From IMG/VR virus record IMGVR_UViG_3300027872_000013, positions 1 to 40,354 of that record: a DNA stretch of 40,354 nucleotides, one strand, 5' to 3'. Below are positions 5,297-40,265 of this stretch, piece by piece (position 1 is the stretch's first letter; the number at the start of each line of letters is the position of its first letter). The stretch is from a virus. The notes below the pieces were generated by a model. That model was not told the DNA's origin and did not search any database. It saw nothing but the letters and a program-made list of their open reading frames with translations. A program made the translations under genes and the position numbers.

Positions 5297-5359
5297 AGCG
5301 CGGCCAATTGGGCCCCGGAAAGGCTCAAGTTTAGCCGTCACGTAGCCGTAACGGTGAGC

Positions 5360-5575: not shown

Positions 5576-5690
5576 CCAACCGTCGGCACCCCCCGCCGAC
5601 CAGGCCGCGCGGCTCAAGGCCCTACGGGCGCGCAATCTGCAGCGCCTCGGCCTTGGGCCGCGCACCGCCGTTATCTCGCGCTCGCGATAG
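5565..5690 (+). CDS. Very small basic protein (41 aa)
   Basis: 41-codon frame, MAASQPSAPPADQAARLKA..., ending RTAVISRSR. It overlaps the end of the 71-aa gene by 11 nt and is preceded by GGTGGTCAATC, the same ribosome-binding box used in the leftward operon. It overlaps the 3' end of the convergent tail gene by 20 nt. Its size makes it tentative. Confidence 0.38.
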   Translation: MAASQPSAPPADQAARLKALRARNLQRLGLGPRTAVISRSR

Positions 5691-6273
5691 CCCGGGCGAG
5701 CGCTTTTCCAAAATTCCGCTCCCAGCGTTTCCGTACCGTCTTGTTGACCGTGTCGACAAAGCCAAACCTGGGCTCAATGCGCGCGGTCTGAATGAGCAGG
5801 TAAAGCACCTCGGCGCGTTTGCGTTTGGTGCCTCGCTTGATAATCGCGGGCACGCCCTTTTTGGTTTCGCCTCGGTAGACGTTCTTTTTTTTCAGCTGAG
5901 CCGCCGGGCGACGCCCTTTCGTCAGCACGCGCGTTTTGGCGAGCCGCGCCAGCGCCCCCACCGGCACCGCAATGGCACGGCCTCGAGGCGTCTTGACGCC
6001 GCCAGATTCCTGTAGGGCCATAAACGGGTCGCGCTGCTCAACCGAGCCCCACAGCCGGTTTTTATTTGACGGTTTGACCTGCACGCCACGCACCACCCAC
6101 GGCCGCCGCACCTTGAAACGCTTGGGCAGCTGCTCGCGCACCTCGTCTTGCGCGTCCTTCAGCGTGAGGTTGAGGCCCAGGCTGGTGGCAAAGGGCAGCT
6201 GTTTGGCCTTTAGCGTGCTGAGCGAAAACACCACCTCGGGCACGTTGACCTCGAGGTCGAATGCCGCCGCCAT
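5671..6273 (-). CDS. Minor tail protein Z-like (tail completion), displaced
   Basis: 200-residue protein resembling the lambda gpZ family of tail-completion/neck proteins. Supporting segments are LPKRFKVRRPWVVRGVQV, the RDPFMALQESGGVKTPRG motif around residue 80, a basic middle with KRxAEVLYLL, and the C-terminal RFGFVDTVNKTVRKRWERNF. In lambda, Z lies between FII and U. Here the FII-like and U-like genes abut at 32858 with no gene between, and the Z-like gene sits about 27 kb away beside early genes. It starts with ATG preceded by GGGGG and is preceded by a terminator-like hairpin. Assignment rests on remembered family pattern. Confidence 0.68.
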   Translation of the reverse strand: MAAAFDLEVNVPEVVFSLSTLKAKQLPFATSLGLNLTLKDAQDEVREQLPKRFKVRRPWVVRGVQVKPSNKNRLWGSVEQRDPFMALQESGGVKTPRGRAIAVPVGALARLAKTRVLTKGRRPAAQLKKKNVYRGETKKGVPAIIKRGTKRKRAEVLYLLIQTARIEPRFGFVDTVNKTVRKRWERNFGKALARAIASAR

Positions 6274-6464: not shown

Positions 6465-6839
6465 CTAGCTGGTGATTTTCGCGCGATCTGCGCCACTTTC
6501 CCCGTGGAACGTGTCGCCCTTTTTGCGCGCTCGAGCAAACCTGAGCGCCTCGGGCACCGTCACGCGCCACCTGGGCACCGTCCCACGGCCGGCATCGAAG
6601 GCCGCTAGCGCGCCGTCCTCAATCCAACCGCGCACCGTCGCCTTGCTGACCTGCCAGCTAAAAGCCAGGTCGCCGGTGCGCAGCACCAGGCGCGTGAGCG
6701 GCTCGGCGTGCACCAGGGCCGCCTCGAGCCGGTCGGCAATGCTGTGGGCAGGCTCGTGGAAACTGTCGGGGTGTGCGCGCAGGACCTCGACGGCCTCACG
6801 CGCCACGGTGGCCAGGTCCTCGAGCGGTGTGGTGATCAT
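6465..6839 (-). CDS. Helix-turn-helix DNA-binding protein, excisionase/MerR-like
   Basis: 124-residue protein. The C-terminal half (residues about 57-108) has the winged-HTH pattern of excisionase/MerR-type domains: GDLAFSWQVSKATVRGW, then EDGALAAFDAGRGTVPRW and RVTVPEALRFAR. The N-terminal half is helical and acidic and may mediate dimerisation. Start ATG overlaps the upstream stop as ATGA. It could be the recombination directionality factor for the integrase or an early regulator; its distance from int makes the second at least as likely. Confidence 0.7.
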   Translation of the reverse strand: MITTPLEDLATVAREAVEVLRAHPDSFHEPAHSIADRLEAALVHAEPLTRLVLRTGDLAFSWQVSKATVRGWIEDGALAAFDAGRGTVPRWRVTVPEALRFARARKKGDTFHGESGADRAKITS

Positions 6840-7630
6840 GGCGCCACCTGCCGCATGGGCACCTGGCGGTAAACCTTGCCGTGCTCGCGGGTGGTCGAGC
6901 GCGCCAGCCGGATCAAATCAGCGCCGCGTGCGCTCGCAATAATGGCGTCGCCGGGCGTGCGCTCGACGTCCTGCAACAGCCCAAACCAGGCCGCCGGGTC
7001 CGCCGGCACAATGGCCGTAGCCGGCAGGGGCTCGAGCACGTCGATTGATTCCTCGGCGCCTTGGGCCATGAGCACCGGCACCCGCCTGGCCATTAGCCCG
7101 CGTTTTATCAGGGCCTCGGAAAGGGTTTTCCTCGCGCGCTTGATCGCCCACTTGACACCCGCAACGGTAAAACCACTCGCCGGCACCGGCCACAGCCCTG
7201 GGTGCTCGAGCGCGAGCTCGGCCGCCGCCTCGGCGACGTACTCAAAGCTGCGGTCGGTCAAAAGCCAGAGGCCATAAAGCACCCGGTCGCGGGTGTCGAC
7301 CTGGTCAATAGCCAGCTCGAGGTCGGCGAGCTCCACCAGGCCCGACTCGCCGGCGTGTGGGCGACGCGTGGTTTGCACCATGCCGCGCACAACGTACTCG
7401 ACCCGGCATTGCCACACCCACCCGCAGCGCTTGCACCGGTCGACGAAGCCCTGGCCTTTTTTTGCGGGCACCTCGTGGTGCTCGGTGTGGCCGCATTCGC
7501 TGCAGCTGGTCGCTGCCACGTTGCCCTTGATTAAAAACGGGTCCGAACCGCCAGCGGTTTGTTTGCGCGCGGCCAGGCGCCACCACAGCCGCACCGCATC
7601 GTCTGGCCCTTGTAAAACCGTGCGATTCAA
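6836..7630 (-). CDS. Zinc-ribbon protein, possible transcription regulator (antiterminator/sigma-like)
   Basis: 264-residue protein. Cys43, Cys46, Cys66 and Cys69 (CSECGH ... CKRCGW) form a zinc ribbon. Residues about 100-185 are helical, with a segment SFEYVAEAAAE and a later VKWAIKRARKTLSEAL that resembles a recognition helix in sigma-region-4-like or antitermination proteins. Its position downstream of the replication-like gene and upstream of the HTH gene fits a regulator that switches on later genes, but no family match is certain. TTG start overlapping the upstream TGA as TTGA. Confidence 0.55.
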   Translation of the reverse strand: MNRTVLQGPDDAVRLWWRLAARKQTAGGSDPFLIKGNVAATSCSECGHTEHHEVPAKKGQGFVDRCKRCGWVWQCRVEYVVRGMVQTTRRPHAGESGLVELADLELAIDQVDTRDRVLYGLWLLTDRSFEYVAEAAAELALEHPGLWPVPASGFTVAGVKWAIKRARKTLSEALIKRGLMARRVPVLMAQGAEESIDVLEPLPATAIVPADPAAWFGLLQDVERTPGDAIIASARGADLIRLARSTTREHGKVYRQVPMRQVAP

Positions 7631-8478
7631 CCCGCCCCCTGAGCAGCGACCTGTAGCCTACCGCCGCGAAACCCTTTCCGCTTTGCGCGCGATTCAGCGA
7701 TTGCCGCCTCGAGCTCGGCCGGGTCGGGCGGGTCGGGCGGGCTTTCGCGCACCACGTATTGAATGCCCGGACACGGCGACGGTGTCAGCCGTTTGTAATA
7801 GGGCCCGGTGAGCCACTTGTAAAACGTCCGCACCCAGTCGGCTTTTTTTTCGCCCTCGCCAATGTAGTGGTCGGTGAAACGCGCCCATTGCGCGGCCAGC
7901 TCGCGGTCGTCGAGCTCGAGGTGGCTACGGTTACGCCAGGCCTTGACCTGGTCGCGTTGGGCGTCGCTCAACTGCTCAGGGCAAACGGTTTTGGGGGTTG
8001 CTTTTCGAGCACCTGCTCGAGCTCGAGGGCGAGCGGCCGGCGGTGCCGGCGGGCTCTCTCTCTCTCCTCTCCTCTCCTCTCCTCTTTTAGCCGTAGCGAG
8101 GCCCTGTATTTCCGGCCACTTGGCGACCGTTACGACCGTCTGCAGAGAGTCTGCAGAGGCTCTGCAGGGCTCTGCAGAGAGTCTGCAGAGGTCCTGCAGC
8201 TCGAGCTCGCGCAGGATTTTGAGGCCGTGGGGGAATCGGTCACGGCGGGCGAGGTAGCAAACCGACCGCTTGGGCAGGGAAATTATGCCGGTCCTCGAGC
8301 CTGTGCGCTGCAGCATGGCGAGCAGCCGCACGTATGTCCAACACGCATCGGCGCTGCATTCGCCTAGTTTTGGATCGTCTAGAATCTCGGTTAGCAGCCG
8401 GAAATACGGCCGCCGGTCGCTCGGATATTGGCGCCTCGGCATCCCCCCCCCATCGGCGTGGCCCGTCGGCCTGGTCAA
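7627..8478 (-). CDS. Replication-initiator-like protein with intragenic repeats
   Basis: 283-residue protein. The N-terminal 110 residues (YFRLLTEILDDPKLGECS, ACWTYVRLLAMLQ, ISLPKRSVCYLARR, HGLKILRELELQ) resemble the winged-helix N-domain of phage replication proteins (O/DnaT/DnaD-like). A Pro/Arg/Ala-rich linker follows, then a C-terminal helical part (AAQWARFTDHYIGEG, WVRTFYKWLTG). The DNA for the linker contains six CTGCAG sites spaced 10-11 bp and a CTCTC tract. As in lambda O, an origin inside the initiator gene is possible. Start uncertain: TTG 8478 with GAGGAGG 15 nt upstream, or ATG 8442 immediately after a nine-G run. Confidence 0.6.
   Translation of the reverse strand: MTRPTGHADGGGMPRRQYPSDRRPYFRLLTEILDDPKLGECSADACWTYVRLLAMLQRTGSRTGIISLPKRSVCYLARRDRFPHGLKILRELELQDLCRLSAEPCRASADSLQTVVTVAKWPEIQGLATAKRGEERRGERESPPAPPAARPRARAGARKATPKTVCPEQLSDAQRDQVKAWRNRSHLELDDRELAAQWARFTDHYIGEGEKKADWVRTFYKWLTGPYYKRLTPSPCPGIQYVVRESPPDPPDPAELEAAIAESRAKRKGFRGGRLQVAAQGAG
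8054..8086. repeat. CT dinucleotide tract plus four CTCTC/CTCTT pentamers
   Basis: Simple-sequence tract inside the replication-like gene (GGAGA repeats on the coding strand, encoding GEERRGERE). The pentamer unit is not a multiple of three, so slippage would shift the frame. Confidence 0.9.
8140..8199. repeat. Six CTGCAG palindromes phased at 10-11 bp
   Basis: CTGCAG begins at 8140, 8151, 8162, 8172, 8183 and 8194, mostly as TCTGCAGAG units. The spacing is one helical turn. It lies within the replication-initiator-like gene: a candidate iteron cluster/origin. Confidence 0.9.
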
Positions 8479-8511
8479 TCAGCTGTTTTCAAACCTCCTC
8501 GGGTGCACCCG

Positions 8512-8724
8512 TTACGAGGCCGCAGCGACAGGCTCCCAGGTAATCAGCCGCTCGATACTGATTGCCCCACCCGTGTGCCGCTCAATGCGGCGTGACGCGC
8601 CAGCGCCGCACGGGTAGCGGCCACGCACCAGCTGGGAAATGAACCCCTCGCTGTATCCCACCAGGGCAGCAAACTGTTTTTGGGTCAGGCCATGGTCGCG
8701 GCAGTATTGTGAAATCGGGTGCAC
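8512..8724 (-). CDS. Cro/YdaS-like helix-turn-helix repressor
   Basis: 70-residue DNA-binding protein. The fold signature runs HPISQYCRDHGLTQKQF, AALVGYSEGFISQLVRG (turn and recognition helix), then ASRRIERHTGGAISIERL, the typical end of Cro/YdaS-type domains. The GTG at 8724 is chosen as start because it begins just before the domain; a TTG at 8796 would add 24 residues. An inverted repeat TTTGGG-AAA-CCCAAA lies 2 bp upstream of the start. The gene diverges from the promoter at 8855, as expected of a lysis/lysogeny switch. Confidence 0.72.
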   Translation of the reverse strand: MHPISQYCRDHGLTQKQFAALVGYSEGFISQLVRGRYPCGAGASRRIERHTGGAISIERLITWEPVAAAS

Positions 8725-8726
8725 GG

Positions 8727-8741
8727 TTTGGGTTTCCCAAA
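8727..8741. promoter_or_regulatory. Inverted repeat TTTGGG-TTT-CCCAAA, candidate operator
   Basis: Perfect 6-bp arms with a 3-bp centre, 2 bp upstream of the GTG start of the Cro-like gene. It may be an autoregulatory operator, or an RNA hairpin controlling initiation. Confidence 0.45.
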
Positions 8742-8854
8742 TTCGAGCGGCCGAGTCAAGGCGAAACTGCGCTAAATCAGCGGGCGGCGGCCACAAACCC
8801 GAGCTCGAGCTCGCAGGCCCGCCTGGTTTAATTTAGACATTCCTCATTTATCCG

Positions 8855-8884
8855 TTGACACCCGGGCGAGTGCCGGCTTATGGT
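8855..8884 (+). promoter_or_regulatory. Sigma-70-type promoter (TTGACA - 18 bp - TATGGT)
   Basis: Perfect -35 hexamer TTGACA at 8855-8860, 18-bp spacer and TATGGT at 8879-8884. The direction and place fit the rightward operon that starts at 8894 or 9287 and diverge from the Cro-like gene. It is the best promoter match found in the window. Confidence 0.65.
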
Positions 8885-8893
8885 GCGCACGCA

Positions 8894-9277
8894 ATGGTGC
8901 CGCTGACCGCCTGCATCGAAACGGGAGCGCTCGCATTCTCCTGGCGCATCCTGGGCCCCACGCTCGCGGTCGGTATGGTGCTGGGTGCCCTACTCTACCG
9001 TCGTTTTGCACCAGGCCAGGACCGTGGCCTGGTGGTGAGCGCCGGCGAGCTCGGGCGCGTGCATGGTGTGGCGGGATCGACCCGCCCCGGTGCCGCCGTG
9101 CGGAATGACCCGCAGGTGATTGCGGCGGCAAATCGGCGGCCCGCGTGCGACGGCGTGCGCGGGTCGCTAGTACAGCCCTCGAGGCCCTGGCCTCGGATTT
9201 CCAATAGGCGCGTCGGGTGCGACCAGGCAATTTTTGCCCGGGCGTCGACCACGCCCGACGCGCCCGCCAGCCAATAG
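8894..9277 (+). CDS. Doubtful membrane protein at start of rightward operon (127 aa)
   Basis: Frame beginning MVPLTACIETGALAFSW with one transmembrane helix (LAVGMVLGALLYR). The N-terminal half has normal codon use, but the C-terminal half is Arg/Pro/Ser-rich and breaks the genome's in-frame CTC-GAG habit. Near 9109-9207 another frame reads ASTALEALASDFQ, which looks better. A frameshift, a shorter gene or no gene are all possible. The ATG lies only about 3 nt after the predicted transcription start. Confidence 0.35.
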   Translation: MVPLTACIETGALAFSWRILGPTLAVGMVLGALLYRRFAPGQDRGLVVSAGELGRVHGVAGSTRPGAAVRNDPQVIAAANRRPACDGVRGSLVQPSRPWPRISNRRVGCDQAIFARASTTPDAPASQ

Positions 9278-9286
9278 GGGGTAACG

Positions 9287-9667
9287 GTGGCAATTGACAC
9301 GCCCGAATTTGAGCAGCTCGAGCTCGCCAATGTCGGCGAGGGAAAACTCGAGCTGCAATTTCAGGAGGCCGTGCTGCAGGCGTATGCGATTTTTCAGGAA
9401 AGCACCGACGGTGGGCGCTACGAAATCGGCGCCGGTGGTAACCTCGTCTGCAGCATCGACATGCAAGTTTCGCTCGACCTCGACCTTGAATCGCGCACGC
9501 TGACCGTGGGCAGCCGCGTGTCGAAATTCTCGCCGCCGAAACGGAAGCGGATTTATCGGCAGGGCTACATGCGATCCGGCACCGTGCTGGTCGAGCGCGC
9601 CGTGCAGGACGACCTACCCCTGGCCGGCAACGTGCGGCCGATCAGCGCCGAGGAGGGCGCGAGCTAA
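9287..9667 (+). CDS. Conserved-looking early phage protein (126 aa)
   Basis: 126-residue acidic protein starting MAIDTPEFEQLELANVG, no family recognised. The GTG start is preceded by AGGGGGTAAC. It overlaps the DUF2303 gene by one base (TAATG), so the two are probably co-translated. The alternating pattern CSIDMQVSLDLDLESRTLTV suggests a beta-rich middle, and a basic strand SPPKRKRIYRQGY follows. It may act with the DUF2303 protein in early DNA metabolism; this is inferred from adjacency only. Confidence 0.7.
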   Translation: MAIDTPEFEQLELANVGEGKLELQFQEAVLQAYAIFQESTDGGRYEIGAGGNLVCSIDMQVSLDLDLESRTLTVGSRVSKFSPPKRKRIYRQGYMRSGTVLVERAVQDDLPLAGNVRPISAEEGAS

Positions 9668-15963: not shown

Positions 15964-16590
15964 TCATTGTATAATCAAATAAACGGGTTTCGTGGTCGGC
16001 GACGCTGTGGGCGTTGCGGTTGGCGTTGCGGTTGGCGTGGGCGTGGCGGCAGATTCAGCGGCGCGCCATTCTATCGCGTCAATGTTACAAGTCTGCCGCG
16101 CGCCAGGCGAGCCGCCCGACTTGTGGCAGGTAATTTTTACGCAAACGTCGGCTGCAGCGCTGATTAGGTTAGACGTCCAGGCCTCAACGTGAATTGCGCC
16201 GGGCTCGTCGGGCACGTCGATTTCGGGCCCGCCCTCGTGCAGGTCCGCACAATCGGTGCCGTCGTAAATGTCAATCTCAAACGTCGCGGTGCCGGTTTGT
16301 CCTGAGTCAAACTCGCTGGTAAAAATCGCTATTTCCTGGGCGTTGGCGCCATCGTCCAATGCCCCGGCCGCTGACGTGAATTGCAGCATATAGACAGGGT
16401 TAACGTTATTGCTGTCTGCGGTGCACCAGTCGCCACCTGGCGAGTCGGGGTCGTCGTCGAGGGTTTCGTGCGCGGTTGGGGTGCCGTCGCAATCGTTAGC
16501 GGTCGACGTGATTGTGCCGTTTGGGGTTTCTACCGTCAGGGCCCACGCGGGGGTCGCCAGTAGTAAAAGGACCAGCGGCAGCCAGCGCAC
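15964..16590 (-). CDS. Secreted protein with Thr-Pro repeat tail (208 aa)
   Basis: Signal peptide (MRWLPLVLLLLATPAWA), then a beta-rich domain of about 150 residues with spaced cysteines (DCDGTP, WCTADS, TDCADL, VCVKITCHKSG, QTCNID) and a low-complexity PTPTATPTATPTASPTT linker near the C-terminus ending in KPVYLIIQ. This is the layout of a cell-surface or extracellular protein with a Thr/Pro stalk. Acidic DDDPDSPGG segment may bind Ca. GTG start shares its G with the stop of the giant fibre gene, so both belong to one transcript. No cytoplasmic role expected. Confidence 0.65.
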   Translation of the reverse strand: MRWLPLVLLLLATPAWALTVETPNGTITSTANDCDGTPTAHETLDDDPDSPGGDWCTADSNNVNPVYMLQFTSAAGALDDGANAQEIAIFTSEFDSGQTGTATFEIDIYDGTDCADLHEGGPEIDVPDEPGAIHVEAWTSNLISAAADVCVKITCHKSGGSPGARQTCNIDAIEWRAAESAATPTPTATPTATPTASPTTKPVYLIIQ

Positions 16591-19500
16591 TAATCCACCT
16601 CAACCGTTAGCACAATTGAAAGCTGGTCGACGTTGCCAGACTCCGACACCAGCACCACCGAAAGTTTATCATAGGCCACAAACCCGGTTGCGTTTAACGC
16701 GTCGTCGTCCGAGGGCGAGGTGGTACACGTGAGCGTCGTCGAGGCCACCGCGTCGAGGATTGACGTCGTGCAGGTATCGTCGCCGAGGTCCTCGCCATCG
16801 CATATATTGATAATAACGTTAGTTCCACCGAAGGCCTCGCAGCGAACCTTGGTCATTGTGCCCGTGAAAGGCGGCAGCACAATTAAAAACTCATCGTTAG
16901 TCGGGTTGGGCGACGGCACGAGAAGCTGAAACCCTGTCCTGGTGTCGAGGCTGGCGTGCACGTCGGCAGCCACGAGGCTATCGGCGTCGATTCCGGCGCT
17001 GCCGTGTGTGTGTAGGGCGTCGGCATTGCTGGCATCGGTCAGCGTGTCGAGCTCGGGCCCGGTGCCCGTGGTGTCGCTGTGCGAGGCCACGGTGTGCGCC
17101 TCGGCGTGCAGGTCGGTGAGCTCGGCCCATTTCGTCGCGTCAATGGTGACCACGTCGGTGGTCAGGTCGAAATCGGCCGCCGCGAGCGACACCAGGCGCA
17201 GGTCGACGCCCACCTTGGGGGTGGCTGCCGTTATGGCCAGGCCGCCGCCATCGCTCGAGTGCGTGTTGCTTTCGCCACCCGCTACACCGCACGCGCCGCC
17301 GGCGCCGATTATATCGCCGTTTACGTCAAACTCCGCACACTGGCCAGTCGTCGCCGTGCCGGTAATCAGCTTTAGGTCGATGCCAGACTTAATCGCCGTC
17401 GCGACCTCGGTTATAGCGTCGATATGGTCAGCCACCACCGGGTGCCCGGTGTCGGTGTGAACGTGTAAGGCGTCGGCGTTGCTGGCATCGGTCAGCGTGT
17501 CGAGCTCGGGCCCGGTGCCTGTGGTGTCCGAATGCGAGGCCACGGTGTGCGCGTCGGCGTGGTGGGCGCTGCCGCTGTGTGAGGCGTTTACGGTCATAGA
17601 CTGGTATGTGCCGCCGAGCTCGCCAGTCATTGCAGCCGATTTGAAAAAGAACGGGTCCATAGCGCGGTTTGGGGTGAAGGCGTTAATCTCGGACGTCGTC
17701 CCGATTTCCATCGTGCCTCGAGCGATTACTGTCGCAGCGTCGACATTGAGACCCGACAGCGTGCCGGTAACGTCGGTTTCCAAATCAATAGGGTGCAGGT
17801 CGCCGATTTCCTGCTGCACAAACGCGGTCGAGGCGGCCGAGGTGTCGCTATCGTCTGGCGCCGCCGTTGCGACGTCGGCCGTGCCGCTCGTAAAATCGCT
17901 GGCACCTGTGAAATTATTATCCCCGGTTATTGTGTTATCGGAATTGAGGCCGACTTTGACCGCGTCGGAAAATGTTTCGAGGCCGTGCAAGCGCCAGCGG
18001 TCGTCGGTCCTATCCAATACCCATTCCGACGGGTAGTCCTCGAGGGTCGCCACGTCGACGTCGCCGCAAATTAGGTGCGGCGTATTGACCACCAGAAAGT
18101 CGCTGAAAGCGTCGCAATTCCCGTTGCTGCCGGCGGTGGTGTCCTCAACGCAATTGCCGCCAGGCGTGCCGCAGGTCTGAAATACGTCGGTGCAAACCGT
18201 CGTGCAATCAAAAATTAGATGATTGAGCAGGGTCGACCCGTCGGAGTCGCACAGGCCGTTTGGGTTTCCGGTATTTTCAGGCGGGCCGCCGGCGTTGAAT
18301 AAATCGGTGCAGCCCTCGTCGGTCGAGGTCACCACCTTGATAACCTGGCCGTCCTGGCCACCGTAGAAATTTAGAATCGTTACCGGGGCAATCGTCGCGT
18401 GTGGAAACGACGTTGTCCCGTCGGCGTCGCAGAATGTATCGGCTGCCCCGACCCGCTGCGGCAGGGCAGCTGTCGACGTCGACCCGTCAAAATCGCAAAA
18501 CCCGTTGGAGCTGCCCGAGCACTCGAAATTGCCGTCGGTGCAAGGGCTGCCAAAGCGGCTGTTGAAAACGTCAACACAGTGTGCATCGAAAGCATCGTTG
18601 CACTCAAACGAATAAAATAGCTGGCCCTGTGCGACGTTAGGCGTCGGGTCAGCCTCGGGGAAATACTCAGGCTCGCCTAAGCCTAGAAACCCGCGTGTAA
18701 TAATATCGTCGGCGTGCGTTACGCCGAAAATCCTGGGGTTGATCTCGTGCAAAAAATTGCCGTCGTAATGCTCATCGTTTTTTTGAATGCCCGTCATTTG
18801 CCACAGCACGCCCGGGTTTTCGCCGCCACCCGTTACGCTTTGCCGGCTCGTAAACTCGATCCAGTCTTGATTAGACAGCGAAATGTTAGCCGTGCCGCAG
18901 ACCAGCTCGGTGGACGTGGAGCAATGAAAAACAGTCGTCGCCCTTATGTCGATGCTGATAACCTGCCCGAACTCGTCCGCGTTGGCGTTGGTCGTCCCGT
19001 CGGAGTCGCAAAGGTTATCATGGCACGGCGCCGAGGCTGCGCACGAGGTTTGCGGCGGCCCGCCGGTATCCCAAAAATCGTCGCAGCCCCAGGAAAAATC
19101 ATCATAGTTAGCCGTAATCGACGACGGCCCCACGAAACGCGACCCGCCCTTGACGTCGGGGGCTCCGTTGGCGAGCGGTAGGACCCGAACGCGATTCCAA
19201 ACCGAATTGGCGTCGGACTGGTCGGTTACCCATGTCTCGGTAATGTCGAAGGTGTCAGCGGTGACCGCCTGCACCACCTCGGCGCCGTTGTAGTTGATTG
19301 TGCCGCGTATAACCAGGTCCTCGCCTACAGCTAGCCCGTGAGCAGTAGACGTCATGGTAATGTCGAGGCCGTTCTGCACCATTAGCGTAATTAGCGCGGG
19401 TGCAGCTTCCCCGTGGCGGCGCCCCTCAACCGCAAAATCGCCAGGCTGTTTTAGCTCGCCACCGGTGAGCGGTAGGTATCCGGTGAGCCCTGCCGTGTGA

Positions 19501-21776
19501 TCGTGGGAATCGTCCGCGACCTCGCCGGCAGCGTCGAGGTCGGCCGCGTTGCTGAAATCGGTAATCAGCCCGGCCGAGTCGGCGTCGGCAATGTAGTGGT
19601 GCGCCTCGGTGGCTGTCGCGTCGCAGTATTCGAGCACGTCGAAATTGCTTACCGCCATCCTGCCGAACGTGCTTGCGCCGCAGGTAAGCGGCCCGCCGCC
19701 GATACTGTCGATAAATCCCGCTTCATCGCTTTCGGTGTTGATTGTGCCGCCGGTAACCGATAGGCCGTCGCCGACGTCGGCCTCGAGCAGCACGTCGGCG
19801 GCCAGCTTTGACGAGGCGATATTGGCACCGCCGGCCACGTCGGCGTCGACGATGCCCGAAATCCCAGCGCTCGCGTGCACGTGCAGGCCGTCCGAGTTGC
19901 TCGTATCGGTCAGGGTGTCGAGCTCGGGCCCGGTGCCCGTGGTGTCCGAATGCGAGGCCACGGTGTGCGCCTCGGCGTGGTGGGCGGTGCCGCCGTGCGT
20001 GGCGTTTACTGTAGGGGTGTCAATATCGCCGCCGAGCTCGCCGCCGGCCAGGGCGTAATTGCCCAGCTTGAGCGGCGTCACCGCGCGGGCGTCGTCGAGG
20101 CCGGCGTCGGTTTCGGGCTGGGTGGCGAGCTCGAGAATCCCCGCGACCAGCTCGGTGGCTGCCGCCTCGTCGGCGTGGTGGGCGGTGCCGCTGTGCGTTG
20201 CGGCCACCGTGGGGGTGTCAATATCGCCGGCGAGCTCGCCACCGACCAGGGCGTAATTGCCCAGCTTGAGCGCGGTCACCGCGCGGGCGTCGTCGGCCCC
20301 GGCGTCGGTTTCGGGCTGGGTCGCGAGCTCGAGGACGCCCGCGACCGACTCGCTGGCTGCCGCCTCGTCGGCGTGGTGGGCGGTGCCGCTGTGGTTGCTT
20401 TCGACCACCGTAACGGCAAAGGTGCCGGTGACGTCGCCTAAAAGAGGTTTACGGTGGAGCGTAAAAGGCACAACAACGTCGGACGTTTCGGCGCCGGCGT
20501 CGACCTCCGCCTGGGTCGCGAGAGTGGAAACGCCAGCGGCGCCAATGGTCGCGATTGTCACGCTCGAGCCGGGAAGCGTGCCGGAAACATCGGCGCCGAG
20601 GTCCACCTGTGTGCTGTGCGAGGCAATGGTGTGCGTTTCGGGGTGCAGGTCGGTGAGCTCGGCCCATTTTGTCGCGTCAATGGTGACCACGTCGGCGGCC
20701 AGGTCGAAATCAGCCGCCGCCAGCGACACCAGGCGCAGGTCGGCGAGCACCTTAGGGGTGGCCGCTGTAATGGCCAGGCCGACGCCATCGCTCGAGTGCG
20801 TGTTGACCTCGCCGCCGCTGGGTGCGTCAACCCAACTAGCGTTACCCTCTCCGTCGGTCTGGAAAAGCTGTAGGTTGGTGCCTTTGTTGTTTGGGAGCGT
20901 TAAAAACCAGTCTGTAAAAACCTCGTCTGGCACATCGACCTGAACAAAACTCCCAACGCCGGTGTCGTCATTTAGCCGTAACGCCCCGTCGGTGGGCGAG
21001 CCTATGCCGACGTCGCGGCCGATATTGACGAGCGCCGAACCCGTTTGCTGGCCGTGCACCAGTATGCTGTTATCGGTGGTGAAATTTCGGTTAATGTCAA
21101 ACAACGCGCAGCGCTGACCGTTACAGGAAACCGACACGCCGCCGTCGCCGGGCACCGCCTGATAAAATCCGGTGTTAAGGTCTGACGACCAGACGAGGCT
21201 CGGCGCGCCGAACGTGCCGTCAGGTAGCTGCACTTGGGTGGTAAAAATGCTATCCGAATGCGAGGCCACCGTGTGCGTTTCGAGGTGCAGGTCGGTGAGC
21301 TCGGCCCACTTTGTCGCGTCAATGGTAATCACGTCGGCGGCCAGGTCGAAATCAGCCGCCGCCAGCGACACCAGCCGCAGGTCGATGCCCACCTTGGGCA
21401 GGGCGGCCGTAATGGCCAGGCCGCCGCCATCGCTCGAGTGCGTGTTGGTTTCGCCAGCACCGCCGGCAACGCCGCCCGAGTCGGGTATCCAAGCGGCGGC
21501 CAACGCCGACCACCTGCAGACATTCTCGCCACCGCCCAGGCCGGCATCGCCCAGGTTTCCGCATTCGGTGGGTGTGGCGGCGTCGATAATCACAATGCGC
21601 ACGCCGTTGAGCTCGGGCGAGCAGACTAGCGAAATCACTTCGGCAACCGTGCACTCGACGGGTGCCCGAATGCCAGGTGTCGAGGGCCCTGGTGGTGCAA
21701 AGGGCTGCGCAAAGGTGGTCAGCGGTGCGAGGAATAGGGCAGCGACCAGCGCGAGGACCGCACCGGCTCGGGTCAT
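16590..21776 (-). CDS. Giant repetitive fibre/adhesin with N-terminal Sec signal (1728 aa)
   Basis: Largest protein in the window, in the tail-fibre position. Phage-fibre repeats are evident: LATQPETDAGADDARAVT and THSGTAHHADEAAA blocks, HTVASHSDTTGTGPELDTL units (at least three), and three modules NTHSSDGGGLAITAA ... TIDATKWAELTDLH. Residues about 890-1240 instead form a Cys-rich zone with CDSDGTT, CDFDGST, CDADGTT and CDSDGST, suggestive of disulfides and Ca binding. The N-terminus MTRAGAVLALVAALFLAPL is a clear signal peptide, odd for a virion protein assembled in the cytoplasm. ATG overlaps the upstream stop as ATGA. Either a tail fibre with an unusual leader or a lysogen surface adhesin. 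Confidence 0.75.
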   Translation of the reverse strand: MTRAGAVLALVAALFLAPLTTFAQPFAPPGPSTPGIRAPVECTVAEVISLVCSPELNGVRIVIIDAATPTECGNLGDAGLGGGENVCRWSALAAAWIPDSGGVAGGAGETNTHSSDGGGLAITAALPKVGIDLRLVSLAAADFDLAADVITIDATKWAELTDLHLETHTVASHSDSIFTTQVQLPDGTFGAPSLVWSSDLNTGFYQAVPGDGGVSVSCNGQRCALFDINRNFTTDNSILVHGQQTGSALVNIGRDVGIGSPTDGALRLNDDTGVGSFVQVDVPDEVFTDWFLTLPNNKGTNLQLFQTDGEGNASWVDAPSGGEVNTHSSDGVGLAITAATPKVLADLRLVSLAAADFDLAADVVTIDATKWAELTDLHPETHTIASHSTQVDLGADVSGTLPGSSVTIATIGAAGVSTLATQAEVDAGAETSDVVVPFTLHRKPLLGDVTGTFAVTVVESNHSGTAHHADEAAASESVAGVLELATQPETDAGADDARAVTALKLGNYALVGGELAGDIDTPTVAATHSGTAHHADEAAATELVAGILELATQPETDAGLDDARAVTPLKLGNYALAGGELGGDIDTPTVNATHGGTAHHAEAHTVASHSDTTGTGPELDTLTDTSNSDGLHVHASAGISGIVDADVAGGANIASSKLAADVLLEADVGDGLSVTGGTINTESDEAGFIDSIGGGPLTCGASTFGRMAVSNFDVLEYCDATATEAHHYIADADSAGLITDFSNAADLDAAGEVADDSHDHTAGLTGYLPLTGGELKQPGDFAVEGRRHGEAAPALITLMVQNGLDITMTSTAHGLAVGEDLVIRGTINYNGAEVVQAVTADTFDITETWVTDQSDANSVWNRVRVLPLANGAPDVKGGSRFVGPSSITANYDDFSWGCDDFWDTGGPPQTSCAASAPCHDNLCDSDGTTNANADEFGQVISIDIRATTVFHCSTSTELVCGTANISLSNQDWIEFTSRQSVTGGGENPGVLWQMTGIQKNDEHYDGNFLHEINPRIFGVTHADDIITRGFLGLGEPEYFPEADPTPNVAQGQLFYSFECNDAFDAHCVDVFNSRFGSPCTDGNFECSGSSNGFCDFDGSTSTAALPQRVGAADTFCDADGTTSFPHATIAPVTILNFYGGQDGQVIKVVTSTDEGCTDLFNAGGPPENTGNPNGLCDSDGSTLLNHLIFDCTTVCTDVFQTCGTPGGNCVEDTTAGSNGNCDAFSDFLVVNTPHLICGDVDVATLEDYPSEWVLDRTDDRWRLHGLETFSDAVKVGLNSDNTITGDNNFTGASDFTSGTADVATAAPDDSDTSAASTAFVQQEIGDLHPIDLETDVTGTLSGLNVDAATVIARGTMEIGTTSEINAFTPNRAMDPFFFKSAAMTGELGGTYQSMTVNASHSGSAHHADAHTVASHSDTTGTGPELDTLTDASNADALHVHTDTGHPVVADHIDAITEVATAIKSGIDLKLITGTATTGQCAEFDVNGDIIGAGGACGVAGGESNTHSSDGGGLAITAATPKVGVDLRLVSLAAADFDLTTDVVTIDATKWAELTDLHAEAHTVASHSDTTGTGPELDTLTDASNADALHTHGSAGIDADSLVAADVHASLDTRTGFQLLVPSPNPTNDEFLIVLPPFTGTMTKVRCEAFGGTNVIINICDGEDLGDDTCTTSILDAVASTTLTCTTSPSDDDALNATGFVAYDKLSVVLVSESGNVDQLSIVLTVEVD
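17121..17268 (-). repeat. Fibre-gene 148-bp repeat, copy A
   Basis: Starts CTCGGCCCATTTCGTCGC and ends CGAGTGCGTGTTG on the plus strand. Mostly identical to 20658-20805 and 21300-21447 and of equal length. It encodes the module ending in TIDATKWAEL. Confidence 0.9.
20019..20414 (-). repeat. Tandem 198-bp repeat in fibre gene (two units)
   Basis: GTCAATATCGCCG begins a unit at 20019 and again at 20217 (198 bp, 66 codons). Each encodes the DIDTPTV ... ALKLGNY module. The units are highly similar by eye. Confidence 0.85.
20658..20805 (-). repeat. Fibre-gene 148-bp repeat, copy B
   Basis: Second copy, differing from A and C by scattered substitutions but no length change. Confidence 0.9.
21300..21447 (-). 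repeat. Fibre-gene 148-bp repeat, copy C
   Basis: Third copy, close to the N-terminal signal-peptide end of the gene. High DNA identity among copies points to recombination between them. Confidence 0.9.
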
Positions 21777-22105
21777 GGCCGCGACGCTGCCGCGACCCAC
21801 AGGCCGGCGACTCCGTCTGGATAGGTGGCCTCGACCCTTCGAAACGTATTGTTATACCGGTGCGGGTTGAATTTTCCCACCGGCACGTTGTCACCTGCGG
21901 CAATGGTGACGGTCGAGCTGTCATGCTGCACCTGGGCGTAGCTGCAGGCCCGCTGTTCGGTCAAGGTCACGCGCAGCGGCACGCCAGACTGATTAAAAAC
22001 AATCAGCTTGCTGTCGCCGTCTTTGTTATCAAACTCGTCGCCGAGGACGTCGGCCGGCACCTGCACCACCGGGTCGTTTGGGCCGAGCAGGTCTAGGATT
22101 GCCAC
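21773..22105 (-). CDS. Small beta-rich tail-region protein (110 aa)
   Basis: 110 residues, no signal peptide, MAILDLLGPNDPVVQVPADV start. Hydrophobic-polar alternation (SKLIVFNQSGVPLRVTL, VTIAAGDNVPVGKFNPH) suggests a beta sandwich. It lies between the fibre-like 339-aa gene and the giant protein, with the giant gene starting on its stop (ATGA). Likely a fibre-attachment or decoration subunit by position only. Confidence 0.62.
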   Translation of the reverse strand: MAILDLLGPNDPVVQVPADVLGDEFDNKDGDSKLIVFNQSGVPLRVTLTEQRACSYAQVQHDSSTVTIAAGDNVPVGKFNPHRYNNTFRRVEATYPDGVAGLWVAAASRP

Positions 22106-25278: not shown

Positions 25279-25884
25279 TTAATTCGCAAAAACTTTAGAT
25301 GAGCCGCCGGTAATGGTGGCGCCACCGCTGACCGCGTCGCCGATACGTGCCACCGCTGGGCCGCCGGCGCCGCCGAGGTTGACCAGGCCGCTGGCATTTA
25401 GCTGCACGTTGCCACCGTTGGCGGTTACCGCCACGCTGCCGTCGGCGGTTACCGAGGCGTCGACGTCGGCGTGCACCACCGCGTCGCCGCCGGCGTTTAC
25501 CGTCACGTCGCCCGGCGTGTCGATAACAATTCCCGCGCGCGCGAGGTGCACCTTTTGGCCGAGGTCGTCATGTATCGCGACCTCGCCCTGGGCTAGCGTG
25601 ATTTTCACCGTGCGGTCGGCTGTCGCAATCAACACTTGGTGGTCGTCGACGCCGCCGCAACTTATGGAAATGCCCTCGCAGCTGTCGGGTATCGGGTGCG
25701 AGGCAAACCCGTAATGCGAAAACATTTCCGCCGCTTGGGTCGTCGCACCACGTCGGCCAGTAAACTGTGCCGTGCGCAGCTTTTTGGATTCGTCGACGCG
25801 GGTAACCACCACCCGCGTAATCAGCGATTGAATAAAACCCCTGATCGGCTCGAGCGCCCGGTTGATTTCGTGAATTACAGCCAA
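25279..25884 (-). CDS. Baseplate/spike protein gp45-like
   Basis: 201 residues of the Mu gp45 (gpV-like) spike family. N-terminal OB-like region (VTRVDESKKLRTAQFTGR, FSHYGFASHPIPDSCEG, VLIATADRTVKI) followed by a beta-helix with repeated VT/VH patterns (PGDVTVNAGGDAVVHAD, DGSVAVTANGGNVQLNAS). In Mu it forms the trimeric membrane-piercing tip. TTG start at 25884. About 90 bp upstream, between this gene and the gpP-like stop, is non-coding. Confidence 0.87.
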   Translation of the reverse strand: MAVIHEINRALEPIRGFIQSLITRVVVTRVDESKKLRTAQFTGRRGATTQAAEMFSHYGFASHPIPDSCEGISISCGGVDDHQVLIATADRTVKITLAQGEVAIHDDLGQKVHLARAGIVIDTPGDVTVNAGGDAVVHADVDASVTADGSVAVTANGGNVQLNASGLVNLGGAGGPAVARIGDAVSGGATITGGSSKVFAN

Positions 25885-37783: not shown

Positions 37784-39787
37784 CTAGCGCCTCCTCTGCC
37801 AATAGTCAGACCGCGATTTAAGGCGCCGGCCTTCGCGTGGTTTCCGTGCGCTCGCAGCTGCGAGTGCCTGCGCTGCGCTGGCCTTGGCCTCGCGCTTGGC
37901 GGCCGGTGTCGCGAGGAGCTCGCCGAGCGCGTCCACCTCGGCGTTGAGGTCTAGCCCGTGCATGTTTCGCAGGCCGCAGAGCGCGGAATACGCGTACACC
38001 TCGAGGTCGAAAGCCTCGTTTCGAGGCCGAATCTGACGCCAAACCCGCTTTGCGTAGCCCCTCACGTAGCGGGTTTGTGGCCGCTCGCTGGTGAGCTGTT
38101 TGCAAAACTCGAGGTCAAAAAGCAGCGACAAATGCAACGACCCGGCACCGGGTGGCAGCTGGCCGATGCGCTTATAAACGACGTCCCGGGCAGCGTCAAC
38201 GCCAATTGCAAACAGGTCTATTTTGCCCAGGTTTTTGCGGCTCGCGCGGCGTGGCCACACCGGGCGACCGCCACCGCCGACGCCCTTGATTGCCCAAATC
38301 CGCCGGCCGAGCCGGTCGCGGCAAAAATCGTAGGCCGCCTGGGTGTGGCCCTTTTTGCCGCCGGTATCGACGCAGACCGCGGCAATGTGGATTTCGAGGC
38401 CGCTCGCGTGCTCGCGTGGTGCGGCCAGGAGCTCGTCGAGCTGCTGCCACACCTTCGGGCCGCCTGGGTCACCGCGCAAAACGTGGTGCTCGCAGGCCCA
38501 GCTTTCCTCTCCGCGGCCCCAGGCTTTAACGTAGAGCTCGAGCCAGGATTTTTGGACGTCGACGCTCGCCGTCAGCAGGGCCGCCTCGGCAGGCACCTTG
38601 GGCCCGTAGTTTTCGCGGCGGTTATAAATTGCGTTGGGGTCGAGCTCCTGCTCGGCCCGATCTTCCCAGGTTTCGCCCAACACGGTATTGACGAAAACCT
38701 GCAACAACGTGGGGTCGTGCTTGGCCTCTAAAAAGGCGGCGGCAATGTCCTCGAGGCTGGCCCAAGGTGAATAAATTTCTGATACGTGAAACCCGGCGAT
38801 CCCCCTCGAGGGTTTTGTCGCCCGCCATTGGCCCCACCGAATCGACGCGCGCCGCTCGCCGTCTGTCCACTCGCCCGCGCAATGCTCGCAGACGTACCAA
38901 GCCCGGACCACGGCCGGCGTGGAATCGCCCGCGTCGGGCTCGGTTTGTTCCCATTTCACACCAAAGGCCGCGTCGGGACCGCCCCATTTCAAGCGTTGAA
39001 ACGCACCGCAGCGCGGGCAGGGCACCTCAAAAAACCGCTGGTCGCTGCGGGCAAAAGCCTTTTCGATTCGCGACAGGCCCTTTATCGTCGGCGTCGAAAT
39101 CAAAACAATTTTGCGGGTGCGCCGAAAGGTGGTCGTCCGCTTTCGGGCCAGCGCAACCGGGTCGCCCTCGCTGCCGGCGCTGGCAGGAAAACCGTCGACG
39201 TCGTCGCAGGCCACGACCCGCATCGGCCGGCCACGCAATGACCTGGCGGAATTGGCGCCGCCGATGGTAATTCGGCCGCCTGGGTAGCGCTTCTCGCGTA
39301 TCCGGTTGCCGCTATCGCGCGATTTTGGGTCGGAAACTTTATCGCGCAGCACCGGGCTATCGCGAATCATGGTCGACAGCCTGGCCTTACTCCACTCGTC
39401 GACGAGCTCGAGACTGGGCTGCACGACCAAAATCGGCGCCGGGTCCTGGTCCATGTGGAAACCGCACAGGTTGAGCAACACCTCGGTGCCGCCGACCTGG
39501 GCGGATTTTTGCAACACCACCTCGTCAATCGAGCGGTCGGTGCAGCAGTCCATGATTTCGCGCAGGTATTCGGCCCGGGCGGTCAGCCAGGGCCCGGGCT
39601 CAGCGCTTGCCTCGTCGCTTAGAAACCGGTTTTGATCGGCCCACAGGCTCAGACTTAGCCTTGGTGGCGGTCGCAGCCTTGCGCTTTTGCTTTGCGCCAG
39701 GCCCTCGCGCAGCCTTTCGAGCGTGGCCGACAGCGACTCGAGCGGCGCGTGGGGGTCCTGGTCCGTCGCCGTCGCCGGTGCCGCCAC
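37784..39787 (-). CDS. terL: Terminase large subunit, GpA family
   Basis: 667-residue packaging motor of the lambda gpA type. ATPase: Walker-A-like QKSAQVGGTE at about 93-102, Walker B VVACDDVDGF at 191-200, then the motif VLISTPTIKGLS. Two CxxC pairs (CPRCGAF, CEHCAGEW) form the zinc ribbon seen in the family. Nuclease domain with acidic residues in TASVDVQ and VCVDTGGKKG. The GTG at 39787 is the best start; it lies inside the small-subunit gene, giving a 188-nt overlap. The lambda gpA N-terminus (LRxxLRxxRPxPxxxxxWAD) has its counterpart within the overlap, so at least most of it is real coding. Confidence 0.93.
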   Translation of the reverse strand: MAAPATATDQDPHAPLESLSATLERLREGLAQSKSARLRPPPRLSLSLWADQNRFLSDEASAEPGPWLTARAEYLREIMDCCTDRSIDEVVLQKSAQVGGTEVLLNLCGFHMDQDPAPILVVQPSLELVDEWSKARLSTMIRDSPVLRDKVSDPKSRDSGNRIREKRYPGGRITIGGANSARSLRGRPMRVVACDDVDGFPASAGSEGDPVALARKRTTTFRRTRKIVLISTPTIKGLSRIEKAFARSDQRFFEVPCPRCGAFQRLKWGGPDAAFGVKWEQTEPDAGDSTPAVVRAWYVCEHCAGEWTDGERRASIRWGQWRATKPSRGIAGFHVSEIYSPWASLEDIAAAFLEAKHDPTLLQVFVNTVLGETWEDRAEQELDPNAIYNRRENYGPKVPAEAALLTASVDVQKSWLELYVKAWGRGEESWACEHHVLRGDPGGPKVWQQLDELLAAPREHASGLEIHIAAVCVDTGGKKGHTQAAYDFCRDRLGRRIWAIKGVGGGGRPVWPRRASRKNLGKIDLFAIGVDAARDVVYKRIGQLPPGAGSLHLSLLFDLEFCKQLTSERPQTRYVRGYAKRVWRQIRPRNEAFDLEVYAYSALCGLRNMHGLDLNAEVDALGELLATPAAKREAKASAAQALAAASARKPREGRRLKSRSDYWQRRR

Positions 39788-40265
39788 CCGATAGCCCCCG
39801 CAACACGTCGTCGACCACCCGCTCGAGCTCGGCAATAATGGCCGGCTCGGTGGCCCCGTTGGTGACCTGGGCCCACAGCTCGGCACCAATGCGCGGCGGA
39901 ATTGAGGTCAACGCACGCCGTACCGAATCGTAGTCGGCGCCGACAATCTCGAGCACGTCGTCGACACGTAAAACCTCGCCGCGCAGCTCTGCAAGCCTCA
40001 ACTCTGCCAGCTCGAGGCTGACCTGGGCCTGGCGGCGCTCGATTGCCTGCAGGGTGCTGGGTTTGACGCCCTCGCGGCCCGCGATTTCCGCGCGCTCGAG
40101 CAGCCAGGCCAGCACCGGCGGAATTGTGAAAGCCCACGCGGTGCCTCGGCTTTTCCCTTCCTCGCGCTCGGCAGGGCAACCGTCCTTGGCCCAGCGCGAA
40201 ACCGTGCCCCGGTCGACGCCGAAATGGTGGCTTAGCTCCGTTGCGCTGTAGGTTTTCGCTGCCAC
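39600..40265 (-). CDS. terS: Terminase small subunit, Nu1-like
   Basis: 221-residue DNA-binding subunit of the packaging complex. Winged-HTH N-terminus (MAAKTYSATELSHHFGVDRG, TVSRWAKDGCPAERE) then FTIPPVLAWLLER, oligomerisation helices (LELAELRLAELRGEVLRV), SIPPRIGAELWAQVTNG typical of Nu1-type proteins, and a very basic Lys/Arg/Ala tail. The tail overlaps the TerL N-terminus in another frame. GTG start with a weak AAGG. It is the first structural gene of the leftward late cluster. Confidence 0.88.
   Translation of the reverse strand: MAAKTYSATELSHHFGVDRGTVSRWAKDGCPAEREEGKSRGTAWAFTIPPVLAWLLERAEIAGREGVKPSTLQAIERRQAQVSLELAELRLAELRGEVLRVDDVLEIVGADYDSVRRALTSIPPRIGAELWAQVTNGATEPAIIAELERVVDDVLRGLSGGGTGDGDGPGPPRAARVAVGHARKAARGPGAKQKRKAATATKAKSEPVGRSKPVSKRRGKR

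Follow-up and report, generated by a model that had tools for sequence, protein, structure and literature searches.

Phased CTGCAG palindromes inside a probable replication initiator gene as a candidate origin of an uncultured phage

Genes and features of the locus

The window (the whole stretch of DNA analysed here) is an entire IMG/VR virus record of 40,354 bp. It carries genes for terminase, portal, head protein with protease, tail sheath, tape measure, baseplate and integrase, a gene content by which it is probably a temperate myovirus. A viral locus whose terminase is 92% identical (L004) spans the two ends of the window, with ~265 bp lying between them (L004 6398-6664), and the record is therefore nearly complete, its ends reflecting a circular join or a permuted genome. 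The match of L004 to the window ends at position 6949, 680 bp before the gene of interest is reached.

That gene, a probable replication initiator gene, lies on the minus strand at 7627..8442 and encodes 271 aa from an ATG; its frame is open to 8478. Upstream on the same strand is a gene for a Cro/CI-type helix-turn-helix regulator (8512..8796), and downstream is a gene without a recognised family (6836-7630). Neither a helicase nor a loader gene could be recognised next to the initiator gene, and the phage may use the helicase or loader of its host instead. Inside the initiator gene, six CTGCAG palindromes occupy 8140..8199; with a sense-strand unit of approximately CTGCAGANNCT (11 bp), and with no strand assigned to the array as a whole, they are candidate initiator-binding iterons. 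A minus-strand purine tract of 36 nt (8054..8089), GA-rich and 97% purine on the sense strand, is a candidate unwinding region.

Also in the early/replication part of the genome, and apart from the other tail genes, 5671-6273 encodes a protein matching the minor tail protein PHROG 1924 (E 2.6e-29).

The initiator protein and its relatives

The initiator protein has no significant match of its own in Pfam, NCBIfam or PHROG, and at E 0.001 it does not match the group profiles of PHROG 3926/186/678. Its C-terminal part gave weak matches to PHROG 1408 and 3992 only (replication initiation and primosomal proteins). BLASTP against the protein of locus L023 gave E 8e-10 (the E-value of a single comparison); L023 and a second locus, L024, match the N-terminal part of the window protein, and through L024 further viral loci were reached (29 in the scan, some of them repeated). 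Aligned by hhalign with a profile of 23 relatives, the window protein scored E 8e-8 over 93 columns, and the motif EILDDPK is invariant between it and them. Most relatives match PHROG families annotated as replication initiation protein or DnaD-like helicase loader; the PHROG named replication initiation protein is matched by 20 of the 25 aligned proteins, at a cut-off where the window protein has no match. The relative's gene is adjoined by one for a DnaB or a DnaC-like ATPase in L023, L024 and Pseudomonas phage YMC11/07/P54, with DnaB helicase and DnaC-like ATPase lying downstream of it in the first two. By these sequence comparisons, the window protein is a relative of the PHROG 3926/186/678 group and not a member of those profiles. 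Searches of phages, plasmids and genome contigs found no close relative, nor did searches with the C-terminal part as query. One further candidate relative (L003) was rejected, its match being short and on the strand opposite to the apparent genes.

A structure model of the window protein was built from 25 sequences, an AlphaFold model from 3 sequences having been set aside (pLDDT 40). The 25-sequence model shows the winged helix with confidence, with block means of 82-97 over residues 21-110, and the boundaries that follow, all on the minus strand, are taken from it. The winged-helix domain comprises residues 13-114 (8101..8406). Within it the wing hairpin, residues 86-106 (8125..8187), overlaps the array and has its strands modelled at residues 86-92 and 100-106. 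An interdomain linker of approximately residues 115-158 (7969..8100) contains the purine tract and leads to a helical C-terminal domain of approximately residues 159-219 (7786..7968).

Among solved structures the model resembles 4pt7, 4pql and 5kbj (Z 8.0-8.9 over 95-101 residues), whose titles name initiator or Rep proteins and which we take to be RepA_N proteins. Winged helices of other function reach similar scores, so these matches support the fold and not the function. Among viral predicted structures (BFVD), the model's top matches include entries named lambda O N-terminal domain and replisome organizer. On sequence and model, we regard the product as a winged-helix protein related to DnaD-like and O-like phage initiators, and as a probable initiator itself. 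An earlier note on this DNA had called the protein initiator-like, and that description is borne out by the profile and BLASTP matches to relatives together with the winged-helix model.

The array and the phasing of sites in related genes

An exact word search of the whole window places the array's CTGCAG copies at 8140, 8151, 8162, 8172, 8183 and 8194, confirming the six palindromes and the start-to-start spacings of 11, 11, 10, 11 and 11 bp (mean, 10.8 bp) given in the earlier note. No 6-mer in the window forms a longer chain at 9-13 bp spacing; the next-longest chain, excluding words that overlap the array, has 3 copies, and 3 was also the maximum among the ten highest chains listed for 60 first-order Markov genomes. 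The array is the sole one of its kind in the genome and was absent from all other loci retrieved. The word itself is in excess throughout the window (32 copies versus 10.8 +/- 3.2 expected, 26 of them outside the array), an excess by which the phased cluster is not explained.

Nor can the repeats be put down to the protein sequence. The copies fall in frames 0, 2, 1, 2, 1 and 0 of the minus-strand gene (7627-8442), where they are translated as LQ, LCR, SAE, PCR, SAD and LQ, and this use of different frames rules out a repeat in the protein as their source. Among 5000 synonymous-codon shuffles of the gene, the array span held at most 4 CTGCAG and never 6. Amino-acid conservation alone, which the earlier note had set against its own reading, is therefore not the cause.

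The same note had the repeats in the linker of the protein, which is wrong by the model: what the array encodes (residues 82-101) is the DNA-binding domain's wing. This wing is ~10 residues longer than in relatives, and Tandem Repeats Finder reports for the array, besides the 11-bp unit, a 32-bp unit in 1.9 copies at 93% identity, which points to duplication as the source of part of the array. Taken together, the 32-bp repeat and the longer wing indicate that duplication probably shaped the array. Neutral expansion, in which slippage or the 32-bp duplication multiplied the 11-bp unit without any function in the DNA, could draw on these facts and on the array's position in a hairpin where insertions may be tolerated. 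We nevertheless judge it unlikely, since all six copies preserve the palindrome between spacers that vary, a comparable chain is absent from every other gene of the window, and relatives with other words hold 11-bp phasing in the same gene. Expansion is, moreover, compatible with function: Stx phages have two extra iterons along with 13 extra residues in O (PMC7466680).

The phasing in relatives was measured over 25 of their genes, in which the word GNAACG or its complement CGTTNC recurs 280-480 nt from the gene start. The words are often fused as GNAACGTTNC, and many of the sites are not full palindromes. The gene of L047 has eight CGTTGC-type sites in a chain, ~11 bp apart and in all frames; the series in L043, L040, L053 and L028 are similar. 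Pooled distances between same-strand sites peak at 11, 22, 33, 44 and 55 bp. Pairs at exactly 11 bp number 25 versus 2.7 in synonymous shuffles (maximum, 8), counts for which the words were picked after viewing these genes, a choice that biases the number of sites and does not build in the periodicity. In-phase pairs (11, 22, 33 and 44 bp) number 90 versus 11.9 expected (shuffle maximum, 24) and out-of-phase pairs 17 versus 4.6 expected, pooled figures that are not to be read as independent trials, since relatives may share ancestry. Leaving out L047 gives 20 pairs at 11 bp, 70 in phase and 17 out of phase. A pair 10-12 bp apart is present in the genes of 16 of the 25 relatives, and chain tests on single genes were significant in some only.

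Recurring every 11 bp in many divergent initiator genes, GNAACG/CGTTNC looks, from the sequence, like a family-wide origin signature; in the openly licensed literature we found no description of 11-bp phasing across these EILDDPK relatives. The earlier note had offered conservation of phasing in relatives as a test of its reading. The 11-bp spacing is indeed kept in distant relatives, but the word differs, being GNAACG/CGTTNC in place of CTGCAG. The window for its part lacks a GNAACG/CGTTNC series, keeping the 11-bp spacing with CTGCAG as the word; a word search found in the gene a single GTAACG, at 8128..8133 on the minus strand, 12 bp (start to start) past the array's final CTGCAG in the sense direction, which may be a relict site or chance. 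The positions also differ. Relative to the RQ motif, where the coding part for the winged helix ends, the relatives' sites peak 50-100 nt past and few come earlier, whereas the window's array runs from 96 to 36 nt ahead of it, and by this alignment the two are not strictly equivalent.

Any dimeric DNA-binding protein would suit phased palindromes, and the Cro/CI-type regulator gene directly upstream (8512-8796) supplies a candidate, for which the array could be an operator or silencer; a partition or packaging site would likewise make it another protein's array. We hold this to be less probable still than neutral expansion. The array is ~240 bp inside the coding region and not at a promoter; the only promoter-like site in 7500-9400 is at 8855, with none beside the array; the terminase is distant (37784-39889); and the phased sites of relatives lie specifically within initiator genes. 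That the signal consists of hairpins in single-stranded DNA or RNA (e.g. a single-strand initiation site) and not of duplex iterons is very improbable, for the tendency of one strand of 8130-8210 to fold more stably than its shuffles (DNA parameters, z -4.5) is expected of tandem palindromes in general, and the one-turn spacing of the relatives' sites, many of them imperfect palindromes, is a property of duplex DNA.

Reading as an intragenic origin

From the sequence, and by analogy with known systems, the array is likely to be the initiator-binding part of a lambda-type intragenic replication origin. The purine tract fits this arrangement by its place: read along the sense strand, it lies 50 nt 3' of the final CTGCAG of the array. 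Among relatives, 15 of 21 have their most purine-rich 36 nt downstream of the sites, where uniform placement would give 3.5, and the window shows the same order of array, then purine tract; in lambda O this measure gives nt 427, where the annotated iterons end. The tract is the weaker evidence, for it is 50% A+T, not A+T-rich, and its purine content can be attained by synonymous shuffles. Near the sites in the initiator genes of L027-L054 (nt 280-480), the purine tracts are of low complexity and encode TDTDTD, SQSQSQ or EGEGEG runs.

Several systems invite comparison. The lambda ori in gene O likewise has iterons in an initiator gene followed by a purine-rich unwinding tract, but its iterons are of 18 bp at 20-24 bp spacing and lie ~100 nt further into the gene, its tract is A+T-rich, and gene P comes after O. 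Gene 18 of Salmonella phage L (DNA replication protein O) contains six imprecise 11-bp repeats, unlike the lambda and P22 repeats in sequence, as a putative origin (PMC8022706). The likeness lies in six repeats of an 11-bp unit inside an initiator gene (MW013502 31649-31725); in phage L, whose origin is itself predicted, the unit is TGTCCAACGGA, the repeats form two blocks further 3' in the gene (from nt 396), and a DnaB-like helicase gene adjoins. The RepA_N initiators of pSK41 type share the winged-helix N-domain fold and have origin boxes inside the rep gene, but the four boxes of this Staphylococcus plasmid encode a dispensable central linker and not the wing (PMC5703833). Sequence similarity of the window protein to them was not detected, with no Pfam or plasmid match, and the likeness seen is one of fold only. 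The EILDDPK initiators (L023-L054, Acinetobacter phage Silvergun and Pseudomonas phage YMC11/07/P54) have a related N-domain, the 11-bp site spacing in many members, and a purine tract 3' of the sites; they differ in having GNAACG/CGTTNC after the winged helix, whereas CTGCAG in the window falls within the sequence coding for the wing. The kind of arrangement is thus already known from phage L and lambda, and new here are CTGCAG as iteron word and the wing position, which with the GA-rich, non-A+T-rich tract are the unusual points of the window.

By analogy with lambda O (PMC7466680) and pSK41 Rep (PMC5703833), we infer that the initiator binds the sites, that the tract opens and that replication starts here. 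In the proposed mechanism, winged-helix domains of the initiator would bind the six CTGCAG on one face of the DNA, producing a nucleoprotein array; strain on the adjoining 36-bp GA-rich tract would help strand opening; and the C-terminal helical domain would recruit the host helicase or its loader. GC skew, suggested in the earlier note as a way of locating the origin, lends no support, showing no switch at the array (8.1 kb) and mostly tracking gene direction.

As the array encodes the wing expected to read it, a change of site would also be a change of reader, and we raise the possibility, tentatively and with some doubt, that iteron word and reader co-evolve in one stretch of DNA. If so, the window and its relatives would make up a wide class of phage initiators that keep the one-turn phasing and let the iteron word drift. 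In practical terms, a likely origin is located in an uncultured, probably temperate myovirus, and the case suggests that origins of this kind in metagenomes can be found from sequence alone, as words phased at one turn in initiator genes beyond what synonymous recoding gives. The common 11-bp spacing also links many poorly classified phage initiators and gives testable iteron words for each.

Other repeats were seen elsewhere in the window. GTAACG is over-represented (29 versus 16.6 expected), and at 5332-5353 an 11-bp unit, TAGCCGTAACG, which contains this iteron word of the relatives, occurs twice in tandem. A 198-bp tandem repeat (2.2 copies, 90%) lies at 19972-20398 within a 1736-aa open frame (16590-21800), and a 24-bp tandem repeat (~4 copies, 72%) at 25415-25512.
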